A DNA stretch of 64,000 nt from Bacteroidota bacterium (GTDB taxonomy: Bacteria > Bacteroidota > Bacteroidia > Chitinophagales > Chitinophagaceae), in contig CANFXV010000010.1 in NCBI GenBank assembly GCA_947451115.1, positions 1 through 64,000 of the forward strand. The letters are read 5' to 3'. A program made the position numbers and the translations under genes. This document shows, one piece after another, positions 36,376 through 41,024 of this stretch. Numbering within the stretch: the stretch's first letter is position 1; each line of letters starts with the position of its first letter. The notes beneath the pieces are model-generated. The model was not told where the DNA came from and did no database searches. It worked only from the letters and a program-made list of their open reading frames with translations.

Positions 36376-37689
36376 ATGAAAAAAACATTGCCAGTCATAT
36401 TTACCCTCATCGGCCTTTCCATTTTGGGCATCTTGTTTATTCAAATCACTTGGTTGCAAGGTTTGATGATTCTTTCTAAGAACCAATTGGCCGACAGGCT
36501 GAATCAATCGGGTGTGATTGTATCCAATGAAATTGCAAAAAAAATGAATAGCGGCATGTCTTTTCATTTGCCTAAAAAAGCATTGGGCTTAAACGACGAT
36601 TATCATTTACATAATTTTGGAGAAACCACTATCTCGGATATTTACACCTACCAAGAAGTTGATCAGAAAATAAAAGTTGCTTTAGAAAAGTATGGATTGG
36701 GGGATGTTAAATTTGAGTTTGCGGTGGCAGACAAAAAAGGGAATGTAGAATTTAAGAGTAAAAAATTTGAAGATGTTTTTTCGGATGAGCTTAATACTTT
36801 GCAGAGCAGGGTGTCGGTGATTCCTCAGGATGTAATTGAACCTTCGGGTCCATTTGAGTCTATTATTATTGTGATGCCTAATGTGCGTCTATATCTTTTG
36901 CATTCCTTGCAGTGGGTAATTGTAGGGGTAGTCTTGTTTATACTAGTGGTATTGGCGGCCTTCTTTATTACCATACGGTCTTTAATTTACCAAAGGAAGT
37001 TAGTAGATATTAAAAGAGATTTTATCAACAACATGACGCATGAATTAAAAACTCCTTTGGCCACCATTTCATTGGCGGTAGATGCATTGAAAAGTTCAAA
37101 AGTAAATACAGATGCAAAGTCGGTGGAATATTTCAGCAATATTATCAAGGAAGAAAATGTGCGCATGAACAAGCATGTGGAAACCATTTTGCAGGCAGCA
37201 CAATTAGACAAAAAAGAAAATGAGTTAAATAAGCAACCCACCGATATTCACGATTTAATTCAAGGGGTGGTGGAAAGTTTTAAATTACAATTAGAGGGTA
37301 AGCCATCAGAAGTAGAAACTCTATTAGAAGCCCATCCTTCAGTCATTGAAGTGGATGAAGAGCATTTATTGCATGTACTTTCTAATTTAATTGACAATGC
37401 CATTAAATATTCTAAAGCGTCCATTCACATCATTATTAAAACCAAGTTGCAAAACAATAAAATGTCCATTACAATTGAGGACAAAGGCATTGGTATGAAT
37501 GCGGATGCCATCAAACATATATTTGAAAAATTTTATCGTGCTCAGTCAGGCAATGTGCATGATGTAAAGGGCTATGGCCTAGGCATGAGTTATGTAAAGT
37601 GGGTTTTAGATGCGCACAAGGGTACCATACAGGTTAAAAGCGAAGTAGACAAAGGGACCAGTATCGAAATTGCACTACCCCTTAGCTAG
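36376..37689 (+). CDS. Membrane sensor histidine kinase (orphan)
   Basis: A 437-residue kinase. The first TM helix is at about 5-25, followed by a ~150-residue periplasmic domain and a second TM helix at about 170-200. The HisKA domain holds the phospho-acceptor His222 in M-T-H-E-L-K-T-P-L-A. The HATPase domain shows the N box (H-V-L-S-N-L-I-D-N-A-I-K-Y), G1 (E-D-K-G-I-G-M) and G2 (G-Y-G-L-G-M-S-Y). I take the ATG at 36376, since the longer frame begins inside the ATP synthase terminator. No response regulator gene adjoins; the signal is unknown. Confidence 0.9.
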   Translation: MKKTLPVIFTLIGLSILGILFIQITWLQGLMILSKNQLADRLNQSGVIVSNEIAKKMNSGMSFHLPKKALGLNDDYHLHNFGETTISDIYTYQEVDQKIKVALEKYGLGDVKFEFAVADKKGNVEFKSKKFEDVFSDELNTLQSRVSVIPQDVIEPSGPFESIIIVMPNVRLYLLHSLQWVIVGVVLFILVVLAAFFITIRSLIYQRKLVDIKRDFINNMTHELKTPLATISLAVDALKSSKVNTDAKSVEYFSNIIKEENVRMNKHVETILQAAQLDKKENELNKQPTDIHDLIQGVVESFKLQLEGKPSEVETLLEAHPSVIEVDEEHLLHVLSNLIDNAIKYSKASIHIIIKTKLQNNKMSITIEDKGIGMNADAIKHIFEKFYRAQSGNVHDVKGYGLGMSYVKWVLDAHKGTIQVKSEVDKGTSIEIALPLS

Positions 37690-38993
37690 TTGATCCAAAA
37701 CAAAGAACCATCACCATAACTTAAAAAACGATAATGCTGGTCAATGGCATGCTGATAAATATTTTTCCATTGAGCTCCAGTAATGGCAGCAATAATTAAC
37801 AATAAGGTGGATTTAGGTTGATGGAAATTGGTGACCAAGCCATTGCAAAGTTTAAAAGTATAGCCTGGAACAATCATTAGTTGTGTGCTTGTAATTAAAG
37901 TTTCCATTTTATTGGATGCCATCCAGGAAAGCAGTGCAGTTAGTGCCTCTTGCTGACTGATTTCAAATGGCTGCAATTCATAAGCGTCCCATTGCAATAA
38001 TTTTAATTCTAGGACAGACGCCATTGTTTCCTCTTTAGATTTTTTTATTTGAATTAATTTCACCCCCAACCAGTACAAAGATTCAATGGCTCTAAGCGAA
38101 GTGGTACCCACCGCAATCACTGGTCCAGAATTTTTTTGATGTGCTGATTCAGCTGCTTTGTTTAATAAAAGTTCAATCACTTTTTTAGGTACTTCAAAAA
38201 ATTCTGCATGCATGGGATGATCGTCAATATGGGCCGTTTTTACGGGCAAAAAAGTGCCCGCACCTACATGTAAACTCAGAAATTGACAATCAATATTTTT
38301 AGCGGCTAAGGATTCAAATATTTTTTCATTAAAATGTAAGCCCGCAGTGGGGGCTGCTACCGAGCCTTCCTCTTTGGCATAAGTAGTTTGATATCTTTCT
38401 TTATCCTCTGTATTAGCAGCTCTCTGAATATAGGGCGGAAGTGGAATGTTTCCAATATGTTCAATGATTTCAGAAAAATGAAAATCTTCTGCCCAAGAAA
38501 ATTCAATTAAAAATTTTCCTTCAATAGCTGCTATTTTTTTTGCATACACTGAAAAAGATTTTCCCTGCAGCATTATTTTTTTTTCAAGTAAACCTTCTTT
38601 CCATTTTTTTGCACCACCCACCAAACAGATCCATTCTACTTTTTTAGTGGCTTGCATGGCCATCGCCACAGGACTATAGTTGACACTAGGTTCCAAGCAA
38701 AAAACTTCTATCTGAGATTCGTTATTACTTGAATCAATTGAAGAAGTTGAATTATTTATTTTATTTTTTTCAAAAAATATTCTTGCTGCAATTACTTTAC
38801 TGTTGTTAAATAAGAGGGTTGAATTTGCTGGAATAAAATCAGCAATCTGTGCATAGTTGGTTTCTGCCATGATCTTTTCTTTCCAAACCAATAGCTTACT
38901 TTCTGCTCTATCCTTGGCAGGGGTGTAGGCGATACACTCATTAGGTAAATAATAGTCAAATGCTTCAATGGGGAGCTTTTCGCGTTTCATCAT
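37686..38993 (-). CDS. queA: tRNA preQ1(34) S-adenosylmethionine ribosyltransferase-isomerase
   Basis: A 435-residue enzyme that transfers and isomerises the ribosyl part of SAM to preQ1 in tRNA, forming epoxyqueuosine. Family motifs: F-D-Y-Y-L-P-N-E-C-I-A near the start, G-N-I-P-L-P-P-Y-I, E-G-S-V-A-A-P-T-A-G-L-H-F, H-V-G-A-G-T-F-L-P-V and T-N-F-H-Q-P-K-S-T-L near the end. It is longer than E. coli QueA (~356), partly through a Ser/Asn-rich insert near 85-100. I use the first ATG of the pair at 38993/38990 because TACCTTTG lies 4 nt before it. Confidence 0.93.
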   Translation of the reverse strand: MMKREKLPIEAFDYYLPNECIAYTPAKDRAESKLLVWKEKIMAETNYAQIADFIPANSTLLFNNSKVIAARIFFEKNKINNSTSSIDSSNNESQIEVFCLEPSVNYSPVAMAMQATKKVEWICLVGGAKKWKEGLLEKKIMLQGKSFSVYAKKIAAIEGKFLIEFSWAEDFHFSEIIEHIGNIPLPPYIQRAANTEDKERYQTTYAKEEGSVAAPTAGLHFNEKIFESLAAKNIDCQFLSLHVGAGTFLPVKTAHIDDHPMHAEFFEVPKKVIELLLNKAAESAHQKNSGPVIAVGTTSLRAIESLYWLGVKLIQIKKSKEETMASVLELKLLQWDAYELQPFEISQQEALTALLSWMASNKMETLITSTQLMIVPGYTFKLCNGLVTNFHQPKSTLLLIIAAITGAQWKNIYQHAIDQHYRFLSYGDGSLFWIN

Positions 38994-38997
38994 GGCC

Positions 38998-39005
38998 CAA
39001 AGGTA
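38998..39005 (-). promoter_or_regulatory. -7 promoter element (TACCTTTG) of queA
   Basis: On the minus strand TACCTTTG matches TAnnTTTG and ends 4 nt before the first ATG of queA, implying a leaderless mRNA. Confidence 0.6.
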
Positions 39006-39038
39006 CATATTGCCTTGATTTTCATGCTAATTCACCTG

Positions 39039-39161
39039 TTTTTCACATAAAAAAGGGGCTTTTCCACAGGTTTGCACAGCATCCACGAGCAAAACTTAGA
39101 ATTTATGCTATGAATGCCCTTACTGCATTGATTTTCAGCTTGGTTTATTACTTGTGGAAAA
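39039..39161. promoter_or_regulatory. DnaA-box-like words upstream of mraZ
   Basis: TTTTTCACA (39039-39047), TTTTCCACA (39060-39068), GTTTGCACA (39070-39078) and the inverse-oriented TGTGGAAAA (39153-39161) each differ by one or two bases from TTATNCACA. They cluster in the 238-bp gap between queA and mraZ. Significance is uncertain in AT-rich DNA. Confidence 0.3.
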
Positions 39162-39186
39162 CTAGAACCCCTGTTTTAGCCTTTGA

Positions 39187-39222
39187 AAGTGGTAAAATGT
39201 GTTAATTTGTGTGAACAAGTGG
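39187..39222 (+). promoter_or_regulatory. MraZ-type operator: four direct repeats at 10-bp period
   Basis: The words GTGG, GTGT, GTGT and GTGG begin at 39189, 39199, 39209 and 39219, exactly one helical turn apart. Read as 7-mers they are AAGTGG-type repeats with TAA/TAA/GAA spacers. This fits the known MraZ binding mode (direct GTG-containing repeats at 10-bp spacing upstream of mraZ). The array ends 25 bp before the mraZ ATG. Confidence 0.75.
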
Positions 39223-39246
39223 TAAAAATCACTTCAATTATTAACA

Positions 39247-39705
39247 ATGACAGGCTTTCACGGAGAATATCAATCAACCATCGACGCAAAAGGGCGGTTT
39301 CACTTACCTGGCAGTCTTAAAAAACAGCTAGCCGAAGGGGAGAATCGTTTTATTGTGAGCCGAGGCTTTGAGAAGTGTTTGACGCTTTATCCAATGAAAA
39401 GCTGGCAAGGGATCTTAGATCGTATTAGTCAATTGAATGATTTTGATCCAAAAGTGCGTCAGTTTAGACGACAATTTTTAGGGGGAGCAACAGAAGTGGA
39501 ATTAGATGGAGCTGGCCGTATTTTATTGCCACCCACTTTAAGAGAGTTTGCTTTACCTGGAAAAGAAATTGTTTTAGCTGCAGCATTAGATCGTTTCGAA
39601 ATATGGGATGCAAGTAAGTACAAACAGCTCTTTGAGGATTTCTCTGCAGATGAATTTAGCAATTTGGCTCAGGAAGTAATGGCAGGAATTAAAAAACAAG
39701 ATTAA
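39247..39705 (+). CDS. mraZ: Transcriptional regulator MraZ
   Basis: A 152-residue protein made of two AbrB-like (SpoVT/MraZ) halves: F-H-G-E-Y-Q-S-T-I-D-A-K-G-R-F-H-L-P near the start and V-E-L-D-G-A-G-R-I-L-L-P in the middle, each with the D-x-K/A-G-R core. MraZ binds repeats upstream of its own gene and controls the dcw cluster in several bacteria. The array at 39187-39222 is the likely target, so autoregulation is expected. rsmH follows after 9 bp. Confidence 0.95.
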   Translation: MTGFHGEYQSTIDAKGRFHLPGSLKKQLAEGENRFIVSRGFEKCLTLYPMKSWQGILDRISQLNDFDPKVRQFRRQFLGGATEVELDGAGRILLPPTLREFALPGKEIVLAAALDRFEIWDASKYKQLFEDFSADEFSNLAQEVMAGIKKQD

Positions 39706-39714
39706 GTAAACAAG

Positions 39715-40659
39715 ATGCAAAATCAACCGATTGATTCCACCGCATCTCAAGCATTTGCTTCTTCTTACCACATCCCCGTCTTATTTCATGAAACCATGGA
39801 ATATTTAAATATTCAACCAGAAGGCATTTATGTGGATGCTACTTTTGGTGGAGGTGGGCATAGCAAGGGCATCTTAGCACAATTGGGACCCAAGGGTCGA
39901 TTGATCGCTTTTGATCAGGATGCTGATGCAAAAAATAATTTACCCAAGGATGCACGTTTATTATTTATTCCAGAAAATTTCAAATACTTACAACGTTTTT
40001 TACGCTTACATCAGATCACGCAAGTAGATGGTGTATTAGCAGATTTAGGGGTAAGCAGTCATCAATTTGACGAAGGCAGTAGAGGCTTTTCCACCAGGTA
40101 TGATGGCCCTTTTGACATGAGAATGGACCAGCGTGCTACGACTACCGCTGCTACTATCATTGAAAGTTTTAGTGAAGCCGAATTGCATAAAATGTTTGAA
40201 CAATATGGTGAAGTAACCAATTCTAAAACTTTAGCCAAACACATTGCTACGCAACGTAAGCATGTAAAATTAAATACCGTTCAAGATTTTAAAACTTTCA
40301 TAGCTCCTGTAGTTAAAGGAAATCCCAACAAATATTGGGCACAAGTTTTTCAAGCCATAAGAATAGTAGTGAATGAAGAAATGGAAGTGTTAAAAGAATT
40401 TTTAGCGCAGTTGCCTTTAGTCATTAAACCAGGAGGCAGAGCGGTAATTATCACTTTTCATTCTATCGAAGATCGTTTAGTTAAAAACGCTTTTCGTGTG
40501 TCGCAAGAAGATCAAAAAGATGCCCATCCTTTTCTTTCGCCAGAAAGAGAAGTTTTTTGGAAAATCATTACAAAAAAACCTGTAGTGGCTTCTGAAAAAG
40601 AAATGAATCAAAACAATCGAAGCAGGAGTGCAAAATTGCGCGCTGCGGAAAGATTATAA
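39715..40659 (+). CDS. rsmH: 16S rRNA (cytosine(1402)-N4)-methyltransferase
   Basis: A 314-residue SAM-dependent methyltransferase (formerly MraW) that modifies C1402 of 16S rRNA. Motifs: H-I-P-V-L-F-H-E-T-M near 20, Y-V-D-A-T-F-G-G-G-G-H-S (SAM-binding), A-D-L-G-V-S-S-H-Q-F-D, F-D-M-R-M-D and the C-terminal N-N-R-S-R-S-A-K-L-R-A-A-E-R. Second gene of the dcw cluster and cotranscribed with mraZ and the ftsL-like gene (5-bp gap). Confidence 0.96.
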   Translation: MQNQPIDSTASQAFASSYHIPVLFHETMEYLNIQPEGIYVDATFGGGGHSKGILAQLGPKGRLIAFDQDADAKNNLPKDARLLFIPENFKYLQRFLRLHQITQVDGVLADLGVSSHQFDEGSRGFSTRYDGPFDMRMDQRATTTAATIIESFSEAELHKMFEQYGEVTNSKTLAKHIATQRKHVKLNTVQDFKTFIAPVVKGNPNKYWAQVFQAIRIVVNEEMEVLKEFLAQLPLVIKPGGRAVIITFHSIEDRLVKNAFRVSQEDQKDAHPFLSPEREVFWKIITKKPVVASEKEMNQNNRSRSAKLRAAERL

Positions 40660-40664
40660 GTTGT

Positions 40665-41024
40665 ATGACCGAACCTATTAACCCTACCACTAAGTCTACT
40701 TTAAAAAGTATACTTAACTATCAGTGGATTGTCATGAACATTAGTTTCTTTTTGTTCCTGGCACTGATCGCTATCTTATACATAGCGAATGGGCATTTGA
40801 CCGACAAAACCATTCGAAAAATAAATACTACACAACACGAGCTTAAAGAATTGCAATTCGAATACAAAACTTTAAAGTCCGAATTGATGCGTCGCAGCAG
40901 GGCCGTAGAGATTCAAGATAAAGTGGCGCCTTATGGTTTAGTGGTGGCCAAGGAAATGCCTATTCGATTGGTGAAAGAAAATAGAATTCAAAATCAGTCT
41001 CAAAATAATTCTCAAAACAAATAA
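40665..41024 (+). CDS. ftsL: FtsL-like cell division protein
   Basis: A 119-residue bitopic membrane protein: a cytoplasmic N-terminus of ~25 residues, one TM helix (~26-46, I-S-F-F-L-F-L-A-L-I-A-I-L-Y-I), then a periplasmic coiled coil and a Gln/Asn-rich tail. Its sequence is not diagnostic, but topology, size and place between rsmH and the PBP gene are those of FtsL, which joins FtsB and FtsQ and activates septal wall synthesis. The stop overlaps the PBP start by one base. Confidence 0.8.
   Translation: MTEPINPTTKSTLKSILNYQWIVMNISFFLFLALIAILYIANGHLTDKTIRKINTTQHELKELQFEYKTLKSELMRRSRAVEIQDKVAPYGLVVAKEMPIRLVKENRIQNQSQNNSQNK

Follow-up and report, generated by a model that had tools for sequence, protein, structure and literature searches.

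What governs transcription at the start of the dcw cluster in a member of the Chitinophagaceae, and could the initiator of replication take part in it? The way in which cells couple the initiation of replication to division is a long-standing question, and the short intergenic gap ahead of mraZ, in the 64,000-nucleotide stretch of Bacteroidota DNA analysed here ("the window"), raises it directly. On comparative grounds it is probable that MraZ represses its own dcw promoter while DnaA, at sites a short way upstream, ties division to replication. If true, this would be a direct link from replication to division built into a single promoter. The presence of a conserved and precisely placed DnaA-type cluster at the dcw head, beside an MraZ operator, makes one answer to the coupling question directly testable, and it is this DnaA-type architecture, not the ordinary MraZ operator, that is worth an experiment.

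The original prediction for this region was a four-repeat MraZ operator with an exact 10-bp period, and direct reading finds the repeats as described: GTGG at 39189, GTGT at 39199, GTGT at 39209 and GTGG at 39219, separated by the spacers TAAAAT, TAATTT and GAACAA. This array of four GTG[GT] boxes (39189..39222, plus strand) is assigned as an MraZ operator from direct reading and conservation. The pattern GTGK(N6)GTGK(N6)GTGK has two overlapping matches in the window, both within the one four-box array, against 0.03 expected, and two three-box matches were reached in none of 100 shuffles of the window. The genome to which the window belongs (2.12 Mb in 59 contigs, 89% complete) holds one further three-box match, at C1:45149, with spacers unlike those of the window. 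The mraZ gene (39247..39705, plus strand; TIGR00242 MraZ, 125.8 bits with a cut-off of 98.35) begins 24 bp downstream of the array and heads the dcw cluster, and four distinct solved MraZ sequences (1n0e, 9qlr, 9qlg and 9sx6) match its product with E <= 1.5e-15. Next come rsmH, an ORF matching FtsL weakly and a penicillin-binding-protein-like ORF whose matches stay below their cut-offs; by our reading of the translations, mur-type genes lie further along. The ORF between rsmH and the penicillin-binding-protein-like gene is small (40665-41024), and its FtsL match, at 19.7 bits, is below the cut-off. On the other side lies the divergent queA (37686..39008, minus strand). A search of Rfam gave no match at window positions 38500-40000.

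Is such an array kept in relatives? A family sample of 117 genomes yielded an mraZ match in 115, the window's own genome included; the two genomes without a match were dropped, all 115 upstream regions were read, and a further family member (L204) was kept outside the 115. To anchor each region, a core string derived from the alignment of the family itself was placed at its best match, a procedure biased towards the array positions and not towards the elements upstream. GTGs at 0, 10 and 20 are found in 99 of the 115 family loci and in all 77 usable close relatives (80, of which three were dropped for too short an upstream region), these relatives having proteins 75-99% identical and many being labelled Sediminibacterium or Chitinophagaceae, so that their counts overstate independence even more than the family figures. 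The predicted conservation of an MraZ-type operator is therefore found, and its four-repeat form only among close relatives: the fourth GTG is present in 74 of those 77 but in just 11 of the 115 family loci, the window included, which rules it out as a family-wide feature. Three GTGs followed by NTGG at +30 occur at 32 of the 115 loci, and an extra GTG at -10 at 17. Outside the family, an array was accepted at a score of at least 2.5 (GTG counting 1, any other NTGG 0.5), and on this scale the anchored loci with an array number 29 of 33 at the level of the order, 17 of 18 at that of the class and 13 of 33 at that of the phylum. Eight of the 92 outside loci (L243, L244, L245, L247, L254, L267, L273 and L274) were left unanchored by tblastn and dropped, and 36 of 81 phylum-level matches outside the class were fetched. 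The array looks like an MraZ operator of the known kind, real and ordinary, which extends the known system to this Bacteroidota lineage and points to MraZ autoregulation of the dcw operon. Several distant relatives at the phylum level, among L190-L202, carry two GTGGGGAAWW-like boxes after CTTGACTTT-like words, a layout unlike that of the family.

The available text of earlier reports describes Mollicutes MraZ boxes as direct repeats AAAGTG[T/G] before the dcw cluster (PMC8475190), and the Burkholderia cenocepacia site as four 7-nt GTG repeats with 3-nt spacers that overlap the start site (PMC7761207). The present array resembles the operators of E. coli, Mollicutes and B. cenocepacia, as far as these are described there, in placing MraZ boxes before the dcw cluster. 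It differs from them in that a -7 word of the Bacteroidota type lies between the repeats and that, across the family, the fourth GTG is mostly absent.

That word had already been noticed as a weak -7-like sequence inside the array. Its placement at 39202-39209 stands, and it lies in a conserved block, but it is without the A of the TAnnTTTG consensus. The predicted -7 element (39202..39209, plus strand) reads TTAATTTG, one base off TAnnTTTG, and sits between boxes 2 and 3; the family consensus TTATTTTG, which likewise departs from TAnnTTTG at the A, occupies this place in 91 of 115 loci and TNNNTTTG in 109, the block being kept beyond the GTGs themselves. The TAnnTTTG element has its G at -5, and its A is nearly invariant in Flavobacterium johnsoniae, according to the portion of the source available (PMC6847099). 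The transcription start is predicted near 39214. A possible but weak -33 element, TTTG, lies at 39182..39185 (plus strand), with a 16-base gap to the -7 word; TTTG occurs at -16 to -6 in 55 of the 115 family loci, the gap being 21 bases in 37 of them and 16 in one. Exact TAnnTTTG is found in 6 of 115 family loci, the same as in the reversed-letter control (6/115). It is found at 15 of 17 class-level loci (control 0), 14-26 bp past the start of the last box, and at 11 of 29 order-level loci (control 5), mostly just past the last box. Since the exact element follows the last box elsewhere and does not do so in the family, the boxes of other lineages are probably upstream of the -7 word, whereas those of the Chitinophagaceae probably lie on both sides of it. 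A promoter placed further upstream, with TTGTGG as its -33 element and a -7 element near -16, is unsupported, exact TAnnTTTG occurring at -17 to -15 in only 3 of 115 loci.

The original prediction was right about the operator and missed what stands beside it, namely a conserved DnaA-box-like element and a ladder of similar words. In the family upstream profile a second conserved word, TGTGGAWAAA, spans -37 to -28, outside the region used for anchoring. The strict form TGTGGAWAA, the DnaA box TTWTCCACA as it reads on the opposite strand, begins between -38 and -35 in 92 of 115 loci, 76 of them at -37. Within -60..-11 it is present in 95 of 115 loci, against a mean of 0.18 for shuffled motifs, the top shuffle (35) being a near-copy of the motif. 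The E. coli DnaA box consensus is given as TTATCCACA in the accessible part of PMC11317965. In the window the element is a strict match at the conserved position, TTTTCCACA on the minus strand at 39153..39161 (TGTGGAAAA on the plus strand), and its GTG precedes that of box 1 by 35 bp, on roughly the opposite face of the helix. The strict -37 box is lacking in 23 of the 115 family loci, and likewise in L204. Beyond the family, 9 of 33 order-level loci have the strict word in the 60 bp ahead of the first box, against 2 of 18 at class level and none of 33 at phylum level, so that the element is rare outside the order. Of these eleven matches, ten start at -16, -26, -27, -36 or -37 and one at -33, so the distance of the element shifts in steps of about 10 bp. 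A different layout, with TTWTCCACA on the plus strand at -11 or -12, is seen at five loci (L172, L180, L182, L203 and L251).

Further from mraZ, the ladder of the window comprises three words on the plus strand: TTTTTCACA (39039..39047), which matches TTWTNCACA and lies 21 bp before the next; the strict box TTTTCCACA (39060..39068); and GTTTGCACA (39070..39078), 10 bp past the previous box and one mismatch away from TTWTNCACA. Over the whole gap TTWTNCACA is matched three times (39039, 39060 and, on the minus strand, 39153) and once with a single mismatch (39070), and one of the three ladder words is a strict TTWTCCACA. For the family, a relaxed ladder box was any plus-strand word from -175 to -45 that keeps CACA and departs from TTWTNCACA by no more than one base. 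Of the 115 loci, 103 contain such a box, 65 have at least two and 31 at least three, while the reversed-letter and opposite-strand controls give 31 and 8 loci. Of 145 pair distances, 52 fall at 10-12 bp, 44 at 20-23, 17 at 30-34, 16 at 41-44 and 16 elsewhere, placing 129 in the four helical classes; the single-turn steps are of 10 bp (26), 11 bp (21) and 12 bp (5). As background, 2.4 million strand-bases sampled from three family genomes hold two pairs 10-12 bp apart. Strict ladder boxes lie mostly near -117, -128, -139 and -150, and none was found at -122 to -126, -131 to -136 or -142 to -148 in the 115 family loci. The corresponding Rayleigh values, about 2e-13 for strict and 1e-32 for relaxed boxes, overstate independence because the species are related. 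The sequences, positions, conservation and phasing of the boxes are direct observations. In having pairs about one turn apart they are like the double DnaA boxes of E. coli (nrdA, mioC, purH, polA), which, in the text seen of PMC11317965, have a gap of 2-3 bp and hence a step of 11-12; they differ in that steps of 10 and 11 dominate and in their runs of three or more. The words do not belong to queA, being present with or without an upstream queA match: strict plus-strand boxes occur at 21 of 49 loci with such a match and 34 of 66 without, and the -37 box at 42 of 49 and 53 of 66, most regions reaching only about 700 bp upstream.

Does the strict word occur elsewhere in the genome? The own genome holds 31 strict sites, two of them in the 238-bp queA-mraZ gap, against 55 for the reversed-letter control, so the word is not generally common. 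One of the 31 had no locus and was left out; of the remaining 30, 16 fall outside ORFs of at least 90 aa, the mraZ pair among them, although the site at L123 may lie inside a shorter ORF. Neighbouring genes include gyrA, dnaE, a gyrB/parE-like gene, tgt, lpxD, an ECF sigma factor and an ammonium transporter. The family was compared at dnaE, gyrA and the control gene rho, after L323 and L364 had been set aside for their shortness and L305 and L306 as ParC-like. Within 250 bp upstream, the strict word is found at 13 of 29 dnaE loci, always as TGTGGAWAA towards the gene, at 6 of 28 gyrA loci, five times in that orientation, and at 0 of 29 rho loci; shuffled motifs give means below 0.2 and maxima of 7, 2 and 2. 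Most upstream regions are without the word (16 of 29 for dnaE and 22 of 28 for gyrA). The DnaA of the genome is full length and carries GRDHTTV in domain IV, which we take to be the motif that contacts the DnaA box.

Could all of these words be MraZ boxes after all, the TGTGGAWAA element and the ladder being extra or decayed copies, so that only the MraZ operator matters? A GTG is indeed present on one strand of both motifs, and the boxes of MraZ are themselves variable (GTGG, GTGT, ATGG). The spacing speaks otherwise, the MraZ boxes keeping an exact 10-bp step in 99 of 115 loci whereas the ladder steps are distributed over 10 (26), 11 (21), 12 (5) and 20-23 bp (44), for which reason the ladder words are not taken as MraZ boxes; the -37 element, too, is out of the 10-bp register. 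So do the flanking bases, read in fixed columns: GTGG is followed by A at the -37 element and by G at box 1 (96 of 115 loci each), and GTG is preceded by T at the former (95) and by A at the latter (85). The ladder words moreover show all four bases at the would-be fourth GTGN place, a place left free by the search pattern. An operator for MraZ alone thus seems distinctly unlikely. It is also unlikely, if a shade less so, that the boxes bind DnaA for its titration or recharging, as datA and DARS do in E. coli, and do not control dcw. Clustering and phasing of the boxes would suit such a role, but one box keeps a near-fixed distance to the MraZ operator in 92 of 115 loci, other families keep distances near -16, -26 or -36, and boxes are also found upstream of dnaE and gyrA.

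Several tandem DnaA-like boxes within one gap would equally be expected if the region were the chromosome origin oriC or a part of it, with the mraZ promoter merely beside it. GC skew was sampled coarsely, as 20 stretches of 20 kb in each of three genomes, and in all three the estimated skew minimum is no more than about 0.65 Mb from mraZ. In G116 this coarse sampling places the minimum somewhere between 3.7 Mb and a point shortly after the start of the contig, close to mraZ (3.63 Mb). In G022, however, mraZ (41 kb) is inside negative skew and the sign changes at about 0.5-0.7 Mb, and in G018 the sign changes between 2.2 and 2.45 Mb, leaving mraZ (2.76 Mb) where the skew is positive; G018, whose ladder is clear, is the better test because that of G022 is weak. 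GC skew therefore speaks against oriC at mraZ in two of the three sampled genomes, and we regard such an origin as very improbable. At 12 dnaA loci at most one relaxed box each was found, and no oriC was established in any genome examined. A TTATCCACA pair near the skew change of G022, at 672 kb, was dropped as oriC evidence because by our reading it looks like coding sequence; the pair pattern was found in 2 of 12 genomes. Separately, an AT-rich stretch at L161 (G067:C1, about 4,087,500) has several TTATCCACA-type boxes upstream of what we read as a nadA-like ORF, and is a candidate oriC or second DnaA site.

Returning to joint control by MraZ and DnaA, how might the promoter work? We infer that these two proteins are the binders and that the promoter lies within the array. 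An MraZ oligomer would hold three or four GTG boxes along the same side of the helix and, so placed, would cover the -7 element and the start site, repressing its own operon. The putative DnaA sites would form a tandem ladder phased with the helix, most of it at some -160 to -105 relative to box 1, together with a site at about -37 in the opposite orientation and roughly on the other face from MraZ. Bound DnaA could then act through contact with RNA polymerase, or by competing with MraZ or forming a bridge to it, and in this way the transcription of division genes would follow the replication cycle; that its effect is activation, from about -57, is a guess. A more tentative version, to which we give slightly less than an even chance, is that Chitinophagaceae DnaA, on the ladder and the inverted box, sets dcw transcription as the core of a regulon that includes dnaE and gyrA, DnaA and MraZ possibly occupying opposite faces of the same DNA. 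Counting against a role for DnaA, the -37 element consists of one box only, whereas in E. coli most binding by DnaA is to pairs of boxes 2-3 bp apart, as stated in the available portion of PMC11317965.

Precedents for DnaA at division genes come from other bacteria. In the accessible text of PMC8203912, DnaA controls ftsZ in Caulobacter crescentus and is bound at the ftsL promoter region of Bacillus subtilis in vivo, while the DnaA boxes that precede ftsZ in E. coli proved to have no effect on that gene. The arrangement proposed here from sequence is like that of Caulobacter ftsZ in bringing the replication initiator to a division-gene promoter, and unlike it in that the sites are at the dcw head, beside the MraZ operator. 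The B. subtilis case concerns another gene, with no MraZ operator mentioned in that text, and the term "dcw" is absent from the article (PMC8203912). Within the open-licence literature, searched by titles and the starts of abstracts and leaving most subscription journals outside, no link of DnaA to mraZ or dcw was found for this phylum. Binding of another regulator, LexA, at an mraZ homologue appears in gut metagenome data, in the part seen of PMC3998124.

Two smaller observations concern TTTTCCACA-type words beside other genes. In the own genome (L140, G000:C21, about 15,394), TGTGGATAG and TTTTCCACA face each other and precede the gene for an ECF sigma factor. The queuosine genes tgt (L122, G000:C3, about 30-40 bp upstream) and queA (window 39039-39078) also share a nearby upstream TTTTCCACA-type word, possibly by coincidence.
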